Below, in pieces: positions 1 to 7,215 of a stretch of 58,344 nucleotides of DNA (position 1 is its first letter; each line of letters opens with the position of its first letter). Under the pieces are notes generated by a model that was not told the DNA's origin, did no database searches, and saw only the letters and a list, made by a program, of their open reading frames with translations. The stretch is taken from the NCBI GenBank assembly GCA_903927955.1, contig CAIYOW010000156.1:1-58344 (forward strand), given 5' to 3'. The translations under genes were made by a program, and so were the position numbers. Origin of the DNA: an uncultured Methylococcaceae bacterium. GTDB taxonomy: Bacteria; Pseudomonadota; Gammaproteobacteria; Methylococcales; Methylomonadaceae.

Positions 1-1004
1 ACTATGCCGCCACTGCCGGGAAGTCCGGTGGCGAGTTTTTTACCCCGCAGCATGTCTCCCGGCTGATTGCCCAGCTCGCCATGCACAAGCAAACCAGCGT
101 CAACAAGATCTACGACCCGGCCTGCGGCTCCGGCTCGCTGCTGCTGCAAGCCAAAAAGCACTTTGATGCCCACATCATCGAAGGCGGTTTTTACGGCCAG
201 GAACTCAACCACACCACCTACAACCTGGCGCGGATGAACATGTTTTTGCACAACATCAACTACGACAAGTTCAACATCCAGCTGGGCGATACCCTGATCG
301 CCCCGCATTTTGGTGATGACAAACCCTTCGACGCCATTGTCTCCAACCCGCCGTATTCGGTGAAATGGAAAGGCTCAGACGACCCTACCCTGATTAACGA
401 TGAGCGCTTTGCCCCGGCTGGCGTATTAGCCCCCAAATCTAAAGCCGACTTTGCCTTTGTGCTGCATGCGCTCAGTTACCTTTCCAGCAAAGGCCGCGCC
501 GCCATTGTCTGCTTCCCCGGTATTTTTTACCGTGGCGGTGCCGAGCAGAAAATCCGTCACTATTTGGTGGATAACAATTATGTGGAAACCGTTATCTCAC
601 TCGCGCCCAACCTGTTTTTTGGCACCACCATTGCCGTGAATATTTTGGTGCTGTCCAAACACAAGACCGACACCACTACTCAGTTTATTGATGCCAGTGG
701 GCTGTTTAAAAAAGAAACCAATAACAACACTCTGACCGATGCCCACATCGAACAGATCATGCAAGCGTTCGATAGCAAAGCGGATGTGGAACACTTTGCC
801 AAATCGGTGAGCTTTGATGCCATCACCGCCAACGACTACAACCTGTCGGTGAGCAGCTATGTCGAAGCCAAGGACAACCGCGAAGTGGTGGATATTATGA
901 AGCTTAATGCCGAACTGAAAACTACGGTCGCCAAAATCAACCAGCTGCGGACTGATATTGATGCCATTGTGGCGAAGATTGAGGGGGCGGGGGACGGTGC
1001 ATGA
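1..1004 (+). CDS. hsdM: Type I restriction-modification methyltransferase subunit HsdM (5' partial)
   Basis: HsdM methylates adenine in the target chosen by HsdS, using S-adenosylmethionine, and forms the M2S core of a type I enzyme. The frame is open from the window edge (first full codon at 3), so the N-terminal helical domain is missing. The visible part opens with a typical GEFFTP segment, then the AdoMet motif DPACGSG (114-134) and the catalytic NPPY motif of N6-adenine methylases (345-356). The C-terminus (about 880-1000) is helical and would contact HsdS. The stop overlaps the fic start by 4 bp (ATGA), so the two are translationally coupled. The EcoR124I-like HsdR downstream suggests the type IC family. 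Confidence 0.95.
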
Positions 1005-1606
1005 GTTTAGAAAATAAATTAAACATCACCGATCAAGTTGCACTGGCAAAAGCCGAAGAAAAAATCAGTAAACAAAAAGCCAGGCAGCTTTTTGACTCTG
1101 GCGATATTGCCAAAGTGGAAGTTGGCACATTCGCCGGACTTGCTTTTATTCATGCTTATTTGTTTGAAGATATTTATGACTTTGCAGGTAAAATTCGCAC
1201 GGTGAATATTGCCAAAGGTAATTTCCGTTTCGCGCCGCTGATGTATCTACAGCCATCACTGGCACATATCGACACTATGCCGCAAAGCACCGTTGACGAA
1301 ATCATCGAAAAATATGTAGAGATGAACATTGCCCACCCTTTTCGCGAAGGCAACGGGCGTGCTACCCGACTCTGGCTTGATCTTATGCTGAAAACAGAAA
1401 CCCAACAGGTGGTGAATTGGAATCTAGTCGATAAGGAAGACTATCTTTCTGCCATGCAGCGCAGCGTGGTGAAAGACATTGAGATTAAAGTCTTGCTCAA
1501 ACAAGCACTCACGGATCAAATTAATGACCGTGCGCTGTTTATGAAGGGTATTGATGTGAGCTATTACTATGAAGGCTATAGCGAATTTAAAACCGAGGAG
1601 CTGTAG
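1001..1606 (+). CDS. fic: Class III Fic-domain protein (probable AMP transferase)
   Basis: 201 residues. The complete Fic motif HPFREGNGR lies at residues 112-120 (1334-1360), with the catalytic His112 and the phosphate-binding GNGR. Fic enzymes usually transfer AMP from ATP to a Ser/Thr/Tyr hydroxyl of a protein target. The C-terminus carries S187-x3-E191-G192, which fits the inhibitory-helix pattern (S/T)xxxE(G/N). Its terminal position marks class III, the self-inhibited group typified by Neisseria meningitidis Fic, so no separate antitoxin is needed. It starts inside the hsdM stop and ends 2 bp before the hsdS GTG, so it is part of the restriction operon. The target is unknown. Family and motif calls are firm; a role in controlling or backing up restriction is inference. 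Confidence 0.93.
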
Positions 1607-1608
1607 TT

Positions 1609-4034: not shown

Positions 4035-4116
4035 GTTTAGTTTGAAACTTATCGAGCCGATGAAAAACTCTCGCCACTGGTGAGAGAATTGCCTCCCAAC
4101 ATTAGCAATCAAACCA

Positions 4117-7100
4117 ATGAAAGCATATAAAACCATTGCCGAATCAAATAACTTCATCGTTCTGGATAAATACACCAAGCATTTGCAAGTCAATGAAACC
4201 TACCAAAGTGAATATGATTTGGAGCGTGAGTTTATCACCGACTTGGAAAACCAAGGTTATCACTATCGGCGCGATGTAAATAGCCACGAAACCATGCTGG
4301 CTAATGTGCGTGTACAGTTACAAGCGCTAAATAATGTGCAGTTTTTAGAGGGCGAATGGCGGCGTTTTGTTGAGGGCTATTTAGATAAGCCCAGCGATAG
4401 CATCGTCGATAAAACCCGCAAGATTCATGATGACTATATCCATGATTTTGTGTTTGATGATGGGCATATCCAAAATATTGTCCTATTGGATAAGCAGCAT
4501 ATTGCCCGCAATAAAGTGCAGGTGATTAGGCAGTTTGAACAAAGAGGCACACAGGCCAACCGTTACGATGTGACCGTGTTGGTGAATGGTTTGCCCTTGG
4601 TGCAAGTCGAGCTGAAAAAGCGCGGCGTGGCGATTCGCGAAGCTTTTAATCAGGTGCACCGTTACAGCAAAGAGAGCTTTAACAGCGAAAACTCGCTGTA
4701 TAAGTATTTGCAGCTGTTTGTGATCTCCAACGGCACCGATAGCCGTTATTTTGCCAACACCACCCAGCGCAACAAAAACAGTTTTGATTTCACCATGAAC
4801 TGGGCGAAATCCGATAATGGTCTGATTAAAGACCTGAAAGACTTTACCGATACCTTCTTCCAGAAAAGCACCCTGCTCAATGTGCTGCTGCATTATTCGG
4901 TGTTTGATGTGAGTGATACGTTGCTGGTGATGCGCCCCTATCAAATTGCCGCTACCGAGCGGATTCTGTGGAAAATCAATAGTGCTTATACAGCCAAAAA
5001 CTGGAGTAATACCGAAAGCGGCGGTTATATCTGGCACACCACGGGGTCTGGCAAAACGTTAACCAGTTTTAAAGCGGCGCGTTTGGCGACGGAACTGGAC
5101 TTTATCGATAAGGTGTTTTTCGTGGTGGATAGGAAAGACCTCGATTACCAGACCATGAAGGAATACCAGCGCTTTTCGCCGGATAGCGTCAATGGCTCGG
5201 ACAGCACCGCCGGGCTGAAACGCAACCTAGATAAGGACGACAACAAAATCATTGTCACCACTATCCAGAAGCTTAATAACCTGATGAGAAGTGAAAACGA
5301 CTTGTCTATCTACAGCAAGCAAGTGGTGTTTATTTTTGACGAGTGCCACCGCAGCCAGTTTGGCGAAGCGCAGAAAAATCTGAACAAGAAGTTTAAAAAA
5401 TTTTATCAATTTGGCTTTACCGGTACGCCGATCTTCCCGCAAAACGCCTTGGGTGCCGACACCACGGCCAGCGTGTTTGGCCGCGAGCTGCATTCTTATG
5501 TCATCACTGACGCTATCCGCGATGAAAAGGTGTTGAAGTTCAAGGTGGACTACAACGATGTACGCCCACAATTCAAAGCCATCGAAAGCGAGATGGATGA
5601 GAAAAAACTCAGCGCCGCAGAAAACAAGCAAGCCTTGTTGCACCCCGAGCGTATTCGGGAAATTGCACAGTACATCTTGAATAACTTCCGGCAAAAAACC
5701 CATCGGCTGCACCCTGGCGCAAAAGGCTTTAATGCCCTATTTGCCGTGAGTAGTGTGGATGCCGCCAAACTCTATTACGAGTCGTTCAAGGATTTGCAAA
5801 AAAGCATCGACAAGCCTCTGAAAGTGGCGACCATCTTCTCTTTTGCGGCCAATGAAGAACAGGATGCCATAGGCGAGATTCTGGATGAAAGCTTTGATGT
5901 TTCAGCCATGAACAGCAGTGCCAAAGAGTTTTTAAGCGCGGCCATTGCCGACTATAACGCGCTGTTTAAAAGCAATTTTGGTGTGGATGGTAATGGATTT
6001 CAAAACTATTACCGCGACCTTGCCAGGCAGGTAAAAGCTAAGGAAATTGACTTACTGATTGTGGTGGGCATGTTCCTGACCGGCTTTGATGCCCCCACGC
6101 TGAATACCTTGTTTGTTGATAAAAACTTGCGCTACCACGGTTTGATACAGGCCTATTCGCGCACCAACCGTATTTATGACGCCACCAAAACCTTTGGCAA
6201 TATCGTCACCTTCCGCGATTTGGAGCAGGCGACCATCGACGCCATCACCTTGTTTGGCAACAACAACACCAAGAACGTGGTGCTGGAGAAGAGCTACAAG
6301 GAATACATGGAAGGCTTTACCGATGTGGTTACCGGCGAAGCGCGGCGCGGCTTTGTGGAAGTTGTGAAGGAGTTGGAACAGCGCTTTCCTGACCCTGCGG
6401 CCATTGAAAAAGAGTCCGACAAAAAGGCCTTTGCGAAACTGTTTGGCGAATATTTGCGTGTTGAGAACGTACTGCAAAACTACGATGAATTTGTCAGCCT
6501 GAAAGCCCTGCAAAGTGTTGATATTAGCAACCCGGAAGCGGTTGAGGCATTTAAGGCCAAGCATTATTTAAACGATGATGACTTGGCAGCGCTGCAAGCC
6601 ATCAAAATACCCGCCGAGCGGAAAATTCAGGATTATCGATCCACTTATAACGATATACGCGACTGGCTAAGCCGTGAAAAATCTGCCGCTGAAAAAGAAA
6701 AATCCACCATTGATTGGGATGACGTGGTCTTTGAAGTGGATCTGCTAAAGTCACAAGAGATCAATCTAGACTACATTCTGGAACTGATTTTTGAAAATAA
6801 TAAGAAAGTTAAAGATAAAGCGGCACTGGTTGAAGATGTGCGTCGAGTGATTCGTTCCAGCCTGGGCAACCGCGCCAAAGAGCGCTTGCTGGTTGATTTT
6901 ATAAACCAAACCGAATTAGACCAGATTGGCGATAAAGCCAGTGTTATTGAAGCGTTTTTCACCTTTGCGCAAGCGGAACAGCGGCGTGAGGCGCAAGAGC
7001 TTATTAGTGCCGAGAGCCTGGATGCCGAGGCCGCGCGGCGTTATATCACCACCTCCCTCAAACGGGAGTTTGCCAGCGATAATGGCACTGGGCTCAATAG

Positions 7101-7215
7101 CATTCTGCCTAAAATGAGTCCGTTAAACCCACAGTACCTGACAAAAAAGCAGAGTGTCTTCCAAAAAATAGCCGCTTTTGTGGAGAAGTTTAAAGGTATC
7201 GGCGGACAAGTTTGA
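4117..7215 (+). CDS. hsdR: Type I restriction endonuclease/translocase subunit HsdR (EcoR124I family)
   Basis: 1032 residues, nearly the EcoR124I length. HsdR cleaves DNA after ATP-driven translocation toward the HsdM/HsdS complex. The nuclease site is D151, E165 and K167 (PD-ExK fold), the helicase Walker A has TGSGKT with K313, and the DEAD-type motif DECH begins at D408. These numbers coincide with the EcoR124I catalytic residues, so the gene belongs to the IC subfamily and looks fully active. Helicase motif [10 protein letters not shown] and YSRTNR follow in the second RecA domain, and a helical region after about residue 730 binds the methylase. It is separated from hsdM/hsdS by the SAS and toxin-antitoxin genes. 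Confidence 0.97.

Follow-up and report, generated by a model that had tools for sequence, protein, structure and literature searches.

The anticodon nuclease PrrC is silenced by a type IC restriction–modification (R-M) complex and freed when a phage blocks restriction (PMC3710099, PMC12707154). R-M operons that contain PrrC or RloC together with DOC/Fic or RhuM were proposed in 2013 as a multi-level ('three-level') defence (PMC3710099), and a review from 2025 regards R-M accessory genes as likely toxins (PMC12707154). A further set of enzymes, the toxic small alarmone synthetases (toxSASs), includes PhRel2 and FaRel2 with their antitoxins ATphRel2 and ATfaRel2 (PMC11782079, PMC11559606, PMC8832971); PhRel2 of phage Lily and FaRel2 are treated as tRNA-pyrophosphorylating (PMC11782079). 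Here we analyse a contig of 58,344 nt from an uncultured Methylococcaceae bacterium (CAIYOW010000156.1, referred to as the window); it spans all of contig C156, one of 162 in a 2.94-Mb draft genome. The window contains a type IC operon with the gene of SAS, as we call a RelA/SpoT-fold protein of 186 aa that is akin to PhRel2 and FaRel2. Compared loci and genomes carry L and G numbers.

The operon lies at positions 1–7215 and is read in one direction as hsdM-fic-hsdS-SAS-phd-relE-hsdR. Like EcoprrI with its PrrC, it is a type IC hsdMSR operon with an embedded gene for a (here putative) tRNA-attacking enzyme; the likeness is to the published description of EcoprrI and not to its sequence. Unlike EcoprrI, the operon has no prrC: no PrrC match was found at positions 1–9000, and the slot between hsdS and hsdR is filled by the unrelated RelA/SpoT-fold enzyme and a Phd-RelE pair, whereas Fic occupies the slot between hsdM and hsdS. 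With moderate confidence, we read the locus as a type IC operon with cargo slots, in which SAS would be a self-restrained, mobile, tRNA-inactivating defence gene in the prrC slot. The operon would stem from a lineage that often bears prrC, and growth-arresting cargo would dock in both spaces between the hsd genes: in the first, a class III Fic that inhibits itself, and in the second, SAS plus a separately regulated Phd-RelE. SAS would disable tRNA at the opposite end from PrrC's anticodon-loop cut and by different chemistry. Because SAS stays intact without a nearby hsd gene, it presumably either keeps itself in check or is switched on by some factor present in infected cells.

SAS and its closest relatives

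SAS is encoded at positions 2863–3423 on the plus strand and matches PF04607 with 30.6 bits (cut-off 27). A preliminary description of the locus had called it a stand-alone RelA/SpoT synthetase. This is right for the fold; the nearest characterised relatives, however, modify tRNA and produce no alarmone. In PHROGs, SAS falls into phrog_4012 (E=1.8e-63) together with Lily PhRel2, a protein of phage GBSV1 and a Streptococcus prophage protein, and the match to Lily PhRel2 covers residues 7–186 (27% identity, E 4e-8). A profile of 18 SAS sequences hit FaRel2 (8.7e-10) and then the small alarmone synthetase YwaC (1.9e-4). By contrast, SAS scored far under the cut-off of the YjbM GTP diphosphokinase equivalog (22.3 vs 320 bits), which speaks against a place in the RelP/RelQ family, and it found no place in the 2011 subgroup scheme as given in the part of PMC3153485 considered here.

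The predicted structure points in the same direction. With Foldseek, FaRel2 was the sole match listed at E<=0.001. With VIA-align 2, FaRel2 entries reached Z-scores of 9.2, 8.3 and 8.3 from SAS residue 2 on, N-terminal helices included, and the 9.2 fit spans residues 2–180; RelP, RelQ and Rel stayed at or below 6.3 and fitted from about residue 41 only, and CapRel scored 4.9. Both rankings hold among the families listed. Furthermore, all 11 active-site residues of FaRel2 are present in SAS: R64, K66, S70, K74, R77, D90, G93, R95, Y128, E145 and Q147 of FaRel2 (numbered as in PMC11782079) correspond to R75, K77, S81, K85, R88, D104, G107, R109, Y144, E162 and Q164. Among 47 sequences, nine of these residues are invariant, S81 is found in 45 and Y144 in 46. 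The tRNA contacts K28 and R29 of FaRel2 align with S37 and R38 of SAS, and K or R stands at either position in 44 of the 47.

Near full-length homology and the SYNTH catalytic residues thus place SAS in the PhRel2/FaRel2 sequence family: it aligns with Lily PhRel2 over almost its whole length, shares all catalytic residues with it but one, and FaRel2 is the best fit to its model. The nearest characterised kin of SAS, judged from sequence and model, are the tRNA-pyrophosphorylating toxins FaRel2 and PhRel2 and not the ordinary alarmone synthetases. Because of this homology, the fold match and the catalytic residues, tRNA appears to be the better-supported substrate. SAS differs from toxSAS modules in that no gene for Panacea or another antitoxin was found adjoining it, its C-terminus is shorter, it inserts as a single gene, and it occurs in R-M operons.

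Slot occupants and distribution of SAS

We used HsdR as query for related operons, which avoids the bias of an SAS-based search. Among 101 relatives, 11 including the window's genome encode HsdR with at least 81% identity, and nine of the ten others were fetched (the tenth, G026, is apparently the genome of L016). Among 398 genomes of the phylum, 18 including the window's have HsdR with E below 1e-250, and 15 of the 17 others were fetched (not G252 and G168). In 21 loci (L110–L117, L193–L204 and L206), the stretch before hsdR can be inspected, with L194 counted despite an unidentified hsdS; in L016, L118, L192 and L205, which are outside this set, the slot is not wholly shown. Cargo was identified with Pfam and PADLOC for representative proteins and with BLAST to these for the others.

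The hsdS–hsdR slot contains an intact PrrC in nine of the 21 loci (L111, L113, L193, L197, L198, L200, L201, L203 and L204) and a broken one in L194. PrrC holds the same slot in L010, with 469 bits compared to 486 in L111 and 477 in L113. SAS was found in L110. The remaining loci have RhuM, DUF1016, a PDDEXK protein, DarT-DarG, Phd-RelE or other genes in this slot, or it is empty (L199, L202); DarT-DarG, for instance, is found at L116:7125-8836 in an operon closely related to that of the window. The hsdM–hsdS space holds Fic, RhuM, KilA-N or DUF1016, or is empty. The representative RhuM, KilA-N and DUF1016 proteins are those of L111.

The preliminary description placed fic, a synthetase gene, and a RelE-type toxin with its antitoxin between hsdM and hsdR, and profile scores confirm these gene calls. 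It also took the combination for a possibly undescribed composite defence unit. Recurrence is found: fic and SAS share an hsd operon also in L004, L007, L013 and L110, and remnants are present in L003 and, by eye, in L020/L120. The arrangement thus goes beyond chance, since other genomes have these genes in matching slots. A fixed unit, in contrast, is rejected because of the variable cargo, with SAS in only one of the 21 loci found by HsdR and Phd-RelE present without SAS in L114. As for novelty, the idea of a growth-arresting layer is not new because it was proposed in 2013 (PMC3710099), on the same principle and with some of the cargo in common (Fic, RhuM, PrrC). Section 10 of that paper does not mention SAS, Phd-RelE or DarTG as cargo, and our searches of open-licence PubMed Central texts, judged by the titles and first lines of abstracts listed, brought up no paper that reports SAS as part of an R-M operon or describes PhRel2 proteins that lack an antitoxin; PMC3339403, which they returned, deals with another subject. 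SAS as R-M cargo may thus be new.

A scan of genome contigs for SAS gave 15 loci. In seven of them, SAS is within a type IC operon (L004, L007, L009, L010, L012, L013 and L016), where the contig end cuts hsdR of L004 and the contig of L016 holds the SAS tail alone. Two loci have an intact SAS beside remnants, namely pieces of fic and hsdR in L003 and, by eye, a short stretch resembling an hsdS tail in L011. The other six (L005, L006, L008, L014, L015 and L017) had no match to the hsd proteins of the window; SAS is frameshifted in L014 and internally deleted in L017. Full-length fic is present in three of the six SAS loci with the hsdM–hsdS space in view (L004, L007 and L013). The 12 full-length unbroken copies are 80–94% identical to that of the window, and the records of the SAS loci, many of them metagenome bins, are labelled as proteobacteria, cyanobacteria and one Planctomycetaceae bacterium. 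This identity across such hosts suggests transfer of SAS between phyla.

Among the 101 relatives, SAS matched in six genomes including the window's; two matches are cut by contig ends and that in G005 is a broken fragment. In G033 (L110), the hsd operon carries both fic and SAS, and three copies of a REP-type transposase-like gene were seen by eye scattered among its cargo genes. In G058 (L120), an intact SAS stands between a fic tail (by eye) and an hsdR fragment; L020 is likewise a remnant by eye. Of the 398 genomes of the phylum, four match SAS: the window's, G458 (60% identity) and two with weak matches in frames of 369 and 372 aa.

SAS is also found in f11, a family of 140 genomes that is probably Pasteurellaceae from its gene content. 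Here, 31 genomes have a match, of which 26 are intact, one has an in-frame stop and four are fragments. Each copy stands by itself amid genes unrelated to it, in most cases with co-directional genes on both sides, and the neighbours are presumably rmlD, rmlC, glf, tsaD, cyaY and rpmE. The commonest site is between rmlD and rmlC. We fetched 30 rmlD loci out of 39 matching f11 genomes; rmlC is downstream in 29 of them, and SAS is present in nine, of which one has a remnant. The 21 others lack it, and in 18 of these the start of rmlC is at most 23 bases past the end of the rmlD match. With a junction this short, the insert amounts to little more than the SAS gene and its ribosome-binding site. 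For the single SAS insertions of L054–L082 and L207–L236, at the rmlD-rmlC junction and among other genes, the corresponding sites in relatives are cleanly unoccupied, and no transposase adjoins the inserted gene.

Further SAS homologs lie on plasmids and, in N. gonorrhoeae, behind a ksgA-like gene (L024). One is found in a satellite phage close to its repressor (L026), and another in an S. agalactiae prophage, 1 bp downstream of a CI-like repressor (L025:4208-5564). Such a site beside a CI-like repressor is typical of superinfection-exclusion genes. In IMG/VR, 32 loci (one partial) are 95–100% identical to the Streptococcus prophage SAS protein; with the SAS protein of the window as query, viral contigs gave no relative. 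E. coli genomes gave no DNA match to the SAS gene.

Restraint, selection and alternative explanations

In Lily and GBSV1, the gene after PhRel2 encodes a Panacea antitoxin (PF13274). No Panacea was found among the Pfam-scanned neighbours of SAS, three of which belong to no Pfam family, nor in the genome of the window; the pZFD type was not sought by model. The other loci, with neighbours judged from their sequences, have no recurring partner gene beside SAS. SAS is thus not filed as a toxin of a toxin–antitoxin pair, because no cognate antitoxin of the toxSAS kind was found. Two other candidates for an antitoxin were rejected. Phd of the window matched, among the loci of the SAS search, only the window copies and L016/L022 (apparently one contig), and the pair in L114 comes without SAS. 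An RNA antitoxin encoded in a shared flank has no support either, as by eye the flanks have in common only hsdS-derived sequence and some 15–30 bases ahead of the start codon; an antisense RNA from within the gene could still act.

The mean pairwise ratio of nonsynonymous to synonymous substitution rates (dN/dS) is 0.060 among operon-borne copies, 0.065 between operon-borne and solo copies, 0.064 between operon-borne copies and those in decayed operons, and 0.071 among 26 f11 copies, after leaving out pairs with saturated dS and in f11 also near-identical ones (13/28, 14/32, 10/24 and 39/325 pairs, respectively). The protein tree contains starred sister pairs of operon-borne and operon-less copies (window/L003 with support 99/89, L012/L015 with 100/99 and L010/L011 with 100/96), and at least six changes between the two states are needed among 15 tree rows. 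The SAS set of 49 rows was made without L074 (in-frame stop) and without the broken or partial L014, L016/L022, L017, L021, L023, L030, L080, L081, L082, the G514 fragment and the IMG/VR loci. Because of the low dN/dS and these sister pairs, SAS seems to outlive the loss of the hsd genes, while some of the selection may predate that loss. As SAS is intact in loci without hsd genes, HsdM and HsdS of the same operon cannot be a general requirement for restraining it; this conclusion covers the loci themselves, as no search was made for R-M systems in the rest of those genomes.

Several alternatives have to be weighed against SAS as a self-restrained defence gene in a cargo slot. SAS could be a non-toxic small alarmone synthetase whose product, (p)ppGpp or a related compound, adjusts growth, and which is carried in whichever operon happens to express it. 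The complete SYNTH active site, the position of YwaC as the next solved relative, and the persistence of SAS in housekeeping operons without a known antitoxin at low dN/dS all fit such an enzyme, and the host has two long RelA/SpoT-domain proteins, so that hydrolase activity is probably on hand. However, both the sequence and the fold of SAS match FaRel2 better, across almost the entire length, than any listed ppGpp synthetase, and the family phrog_4012 is shared with PhRel2. The low YjbM score, the profile, Foldseek and VIA-align 2 together rule down a plain ppGpp synthetase as the first choice, and we consider this explanation unlikely, although the least so of the three. It is also conceivable, but improbable, that neither SAS nor the other cargo serves in defence and that these genes are hitchhikers or selfish elements, for which R-M and rml operons are safe and well-expressed landing sites. 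SAS has inserted as a single gene in many unrelated operons, and no transposase was seen next to it, which agrees with this, as does the sporadic distribution (four of 398 phylum genomes, two of them weakly); yet the mean dN/dS of about 0.06 and the retention after R-M decay argue for a useful function, and the position next to CI-like repressors in Streptococcus prophages and in a slot shared with PrrC, DarTG and RhuM fits defence.

The unit suggested by the preliminary description would work differently: HsdM and HsdS would keep both Fic and SAS inactive, and failed restriction or a switch of HsdS would release them. PrrC of EcoprrI works in this way (PMC3710099, PMC12707154), fic and SAS recur in hsd operons, and the genes are tightly spaced. 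Of the overlaps described earlier, the ATGA between hsdM and fic is real, whereas the 2 bp and 16 bp are gaps (1607–1608 between fic and hsdS; 2847–2862 between hsdS and SAS). Against such joint control stand the intact SAS genes without hsd genes, the fic without SAS in L111, the lack of SAS in most sister operons and the inhibitory motif that Fic itself carries, which make it quite improbable.

The cargo-slot reading has its own weak points. SAS fills the slot in only a minority of cases (one of 21 loci), it co-occurs with PrrC in L010, and mutual exclusion of SAS and PrrC is not significant (PrrC in one of eight SAS operons vs ten of 20 SAS-less ones, p=0.10; the eight are the window, L004, L007, L009, L010, L012, L013 and L110, and the ten include the broken PrrC of L194). 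The confidence of the model is middling (predicted local distance difference test 77.5, predicted template modelling score 0.76), and Foldseek TM-scores with FaRel2 are only 0.43–0.54. Identity is low (17–20% to FaRel2, 27% to PhRel2), the C-terminal helices of FaRel2 are missing, S37 replaces K28, the position of R88 is Y in Lily and GBSV1, and PADLOC matches SAS weakly to its candidate PDC-S33 (27.6 bits). The tRNA substrate, the self-restraint, the trigger by infection and the defence role are inferred. Known toxSASs are described as extremely toxic and as kept in check by antitoxins in trans or by a domain fused to them (PMC11782079), and for SAS the absence of an antitoxin covers Panacea, with no model search for the pZFD type, while the neighbours at L026:4134-4955, L029:5970-6470 and L007:6316-6522 have no Pfam family. 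Furthermore, solo copies in rhamnose and housekeeping operons have no obvious defence context, and the closest operon-borne/operon-less pairs lie above the mean dN/dS (window/L003 0.12, L010/L011 0.08, L012/L015 0.17).

More specifically, SAS might be an antitoxin-free tRNA pyrophosphokinase that acts as a single-gene, self-restrained anti-phage element, travels by itself among operons, prophages and plasmids, and has replaced PrrC as the tRNA-directed guard in some type IC operons; we put this forward as a tentative proposal. If true, it would add a third route for silencing such enzymes until infection besides trans antitoxins and fused domains, and it would depart from the pattern in which an antitoxin accompanies every tRNA-pyrophosphorylating SAS enzyme. 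Type IC operons would then accept unrelated tRNA-inactivating enzymes in the prrC slot, and guarding the restriction system would be a general design. The solo and operon-borne homologs would be a ready set for finding how SAS is silenced and what triggers it. The solitary SAS is a more interesting find than the composite unit.

Other genes of the operon and its surroundings

The operon has the parts of a type IC R-M system. The hsdM gene (3–1004, plus strand, as are all features of the operon) encodes a type I N6-adenine methylase (TIGR00497, 429.6 bits, profile positions 191–515 of 515) and lacks its 5' part because the contig starts at the first base of the window. The hsdR gene (4117–7215) encodes a restriction subunit of 1032 aa (TIGR00348, 690 bits), whose EcoR124-type C-terminal domain (EcoR124_C, 238.8 bits) is the basis for the type IC assignment. 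HsdS has two target-recognition domains in a broken frame. The G+C content of fic, hsdS and SAS is 41–43%, compared to 52.5% for hsdM and 50.7% for the rest of the window.

The fic gene (1001–1606) starts in the ATGA overlap with the hsdM stop codon (1001–1004), and by coordinates a 4-bp overlap between hsdM and the next cargo gene is also found in L004, L007, L013, L110 and L111. It encodes a class III adenylyltransferase of the NmFic/EfFic type with 201 aa (NF046029, 309.3 bits, cut-off 230). The self-inhibition that had been proposed for it agrees with the NmFic equivalog score and the C-terminal SYYYEG motif (of the form SxxxEG), and the active-site motif HPFxxGNGRxxR is present. Its best match in the Protein Data Bank is 5nv5, 'Fic family protein' (E=1e-94), which we take to be the Fic of E. 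faecalis. The window Fic shares sequence family, active site and inhibitory motif with NmFic and EfFic, and differs from them in its placement inside an hsd operon, coupled to hsdM by ATGA. In PADLOC, the family is candidate PDC-S04 (344.3 bits). Class III Fic proteins act by gyrase modification or as deAMPylases. The six operon-borne Fic proteins (window, L004, L007, L013, L110 and L111) are 81–93% identical; the active-site loop is altered in L004 (2052–2657, HPFRECNGR) and the inhibitory motif in L013 (5103–5708, SNYFEG).

Downstream of SAS, the phd/yefM-type antitoxin gene (3514–3774, 86 aa, PF02604 with 51.3 bits, cut-off 29.8) overlaps by 4 bp with the gene of a YoeB/RelE-type toxin (3771–4034, 87 aa, PF06769 with 31.4 bits, cut-off 27), which stays under the cut-off of TIGR02116 (39.2 vs 51.8). 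Both families and the overlap identify a Phd/YefM–YoeB/RelE pair. Two GGTACATTA repeats, 12 bp apart, lie upstream of phd (3478–3498) and may be an operator of the antitoxin; the upstream stretch with both repeats is common to the window, L016 and L114. In L114, the pair follows hsdS without SAS (RelE 98.9% and Phd 89.5% identical to the window). Because the repeats are kept in three loci and the pair occurs without SAS, Phd-RelE looks like a separate module with its own regulation, probably from its own operator and promoter. A promoter and terminator scan found no excess over shuffled sequences and no promoter for phd-relE. As a side observation, the L114 pair (1059–1691) starts just past what by eye appear to be the first codons of prrC, as if it had replaced that gene.

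The hsdS gene is split into two reading frames within the C tract CCCCCTCCCCCCC (2091–2103). The first half (1609–2106, PF01420 with 32.8 bits) has the first target-recognition domain and ends at the frame break, and the second half (2181–2846, PF01420 with 70.1 bits) has the other. C or G runs of seven occur only twice in the window, once in this tract, and at the same hsdS site of L115, from a genome of the same genus, the tract has another length and the frame is open. As the tract of L115 differs in length and reads through, phase switching of hsdS by tract slippage is plausible, with an assembly error as the alternative.

Past hsdR, after 115 bp, a tRNA-Thr (CGT) gene lies on the minus strand at 7331–7406; tRNA genes are a common edge of acquired islands. 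Elsewhere in the window, a t44 RNA (RF00127, 66.9 bits) is found at 36507–36614, just upstream of a ribosomal protein S2-like gene at 36655, which is an ordinary arrangement.

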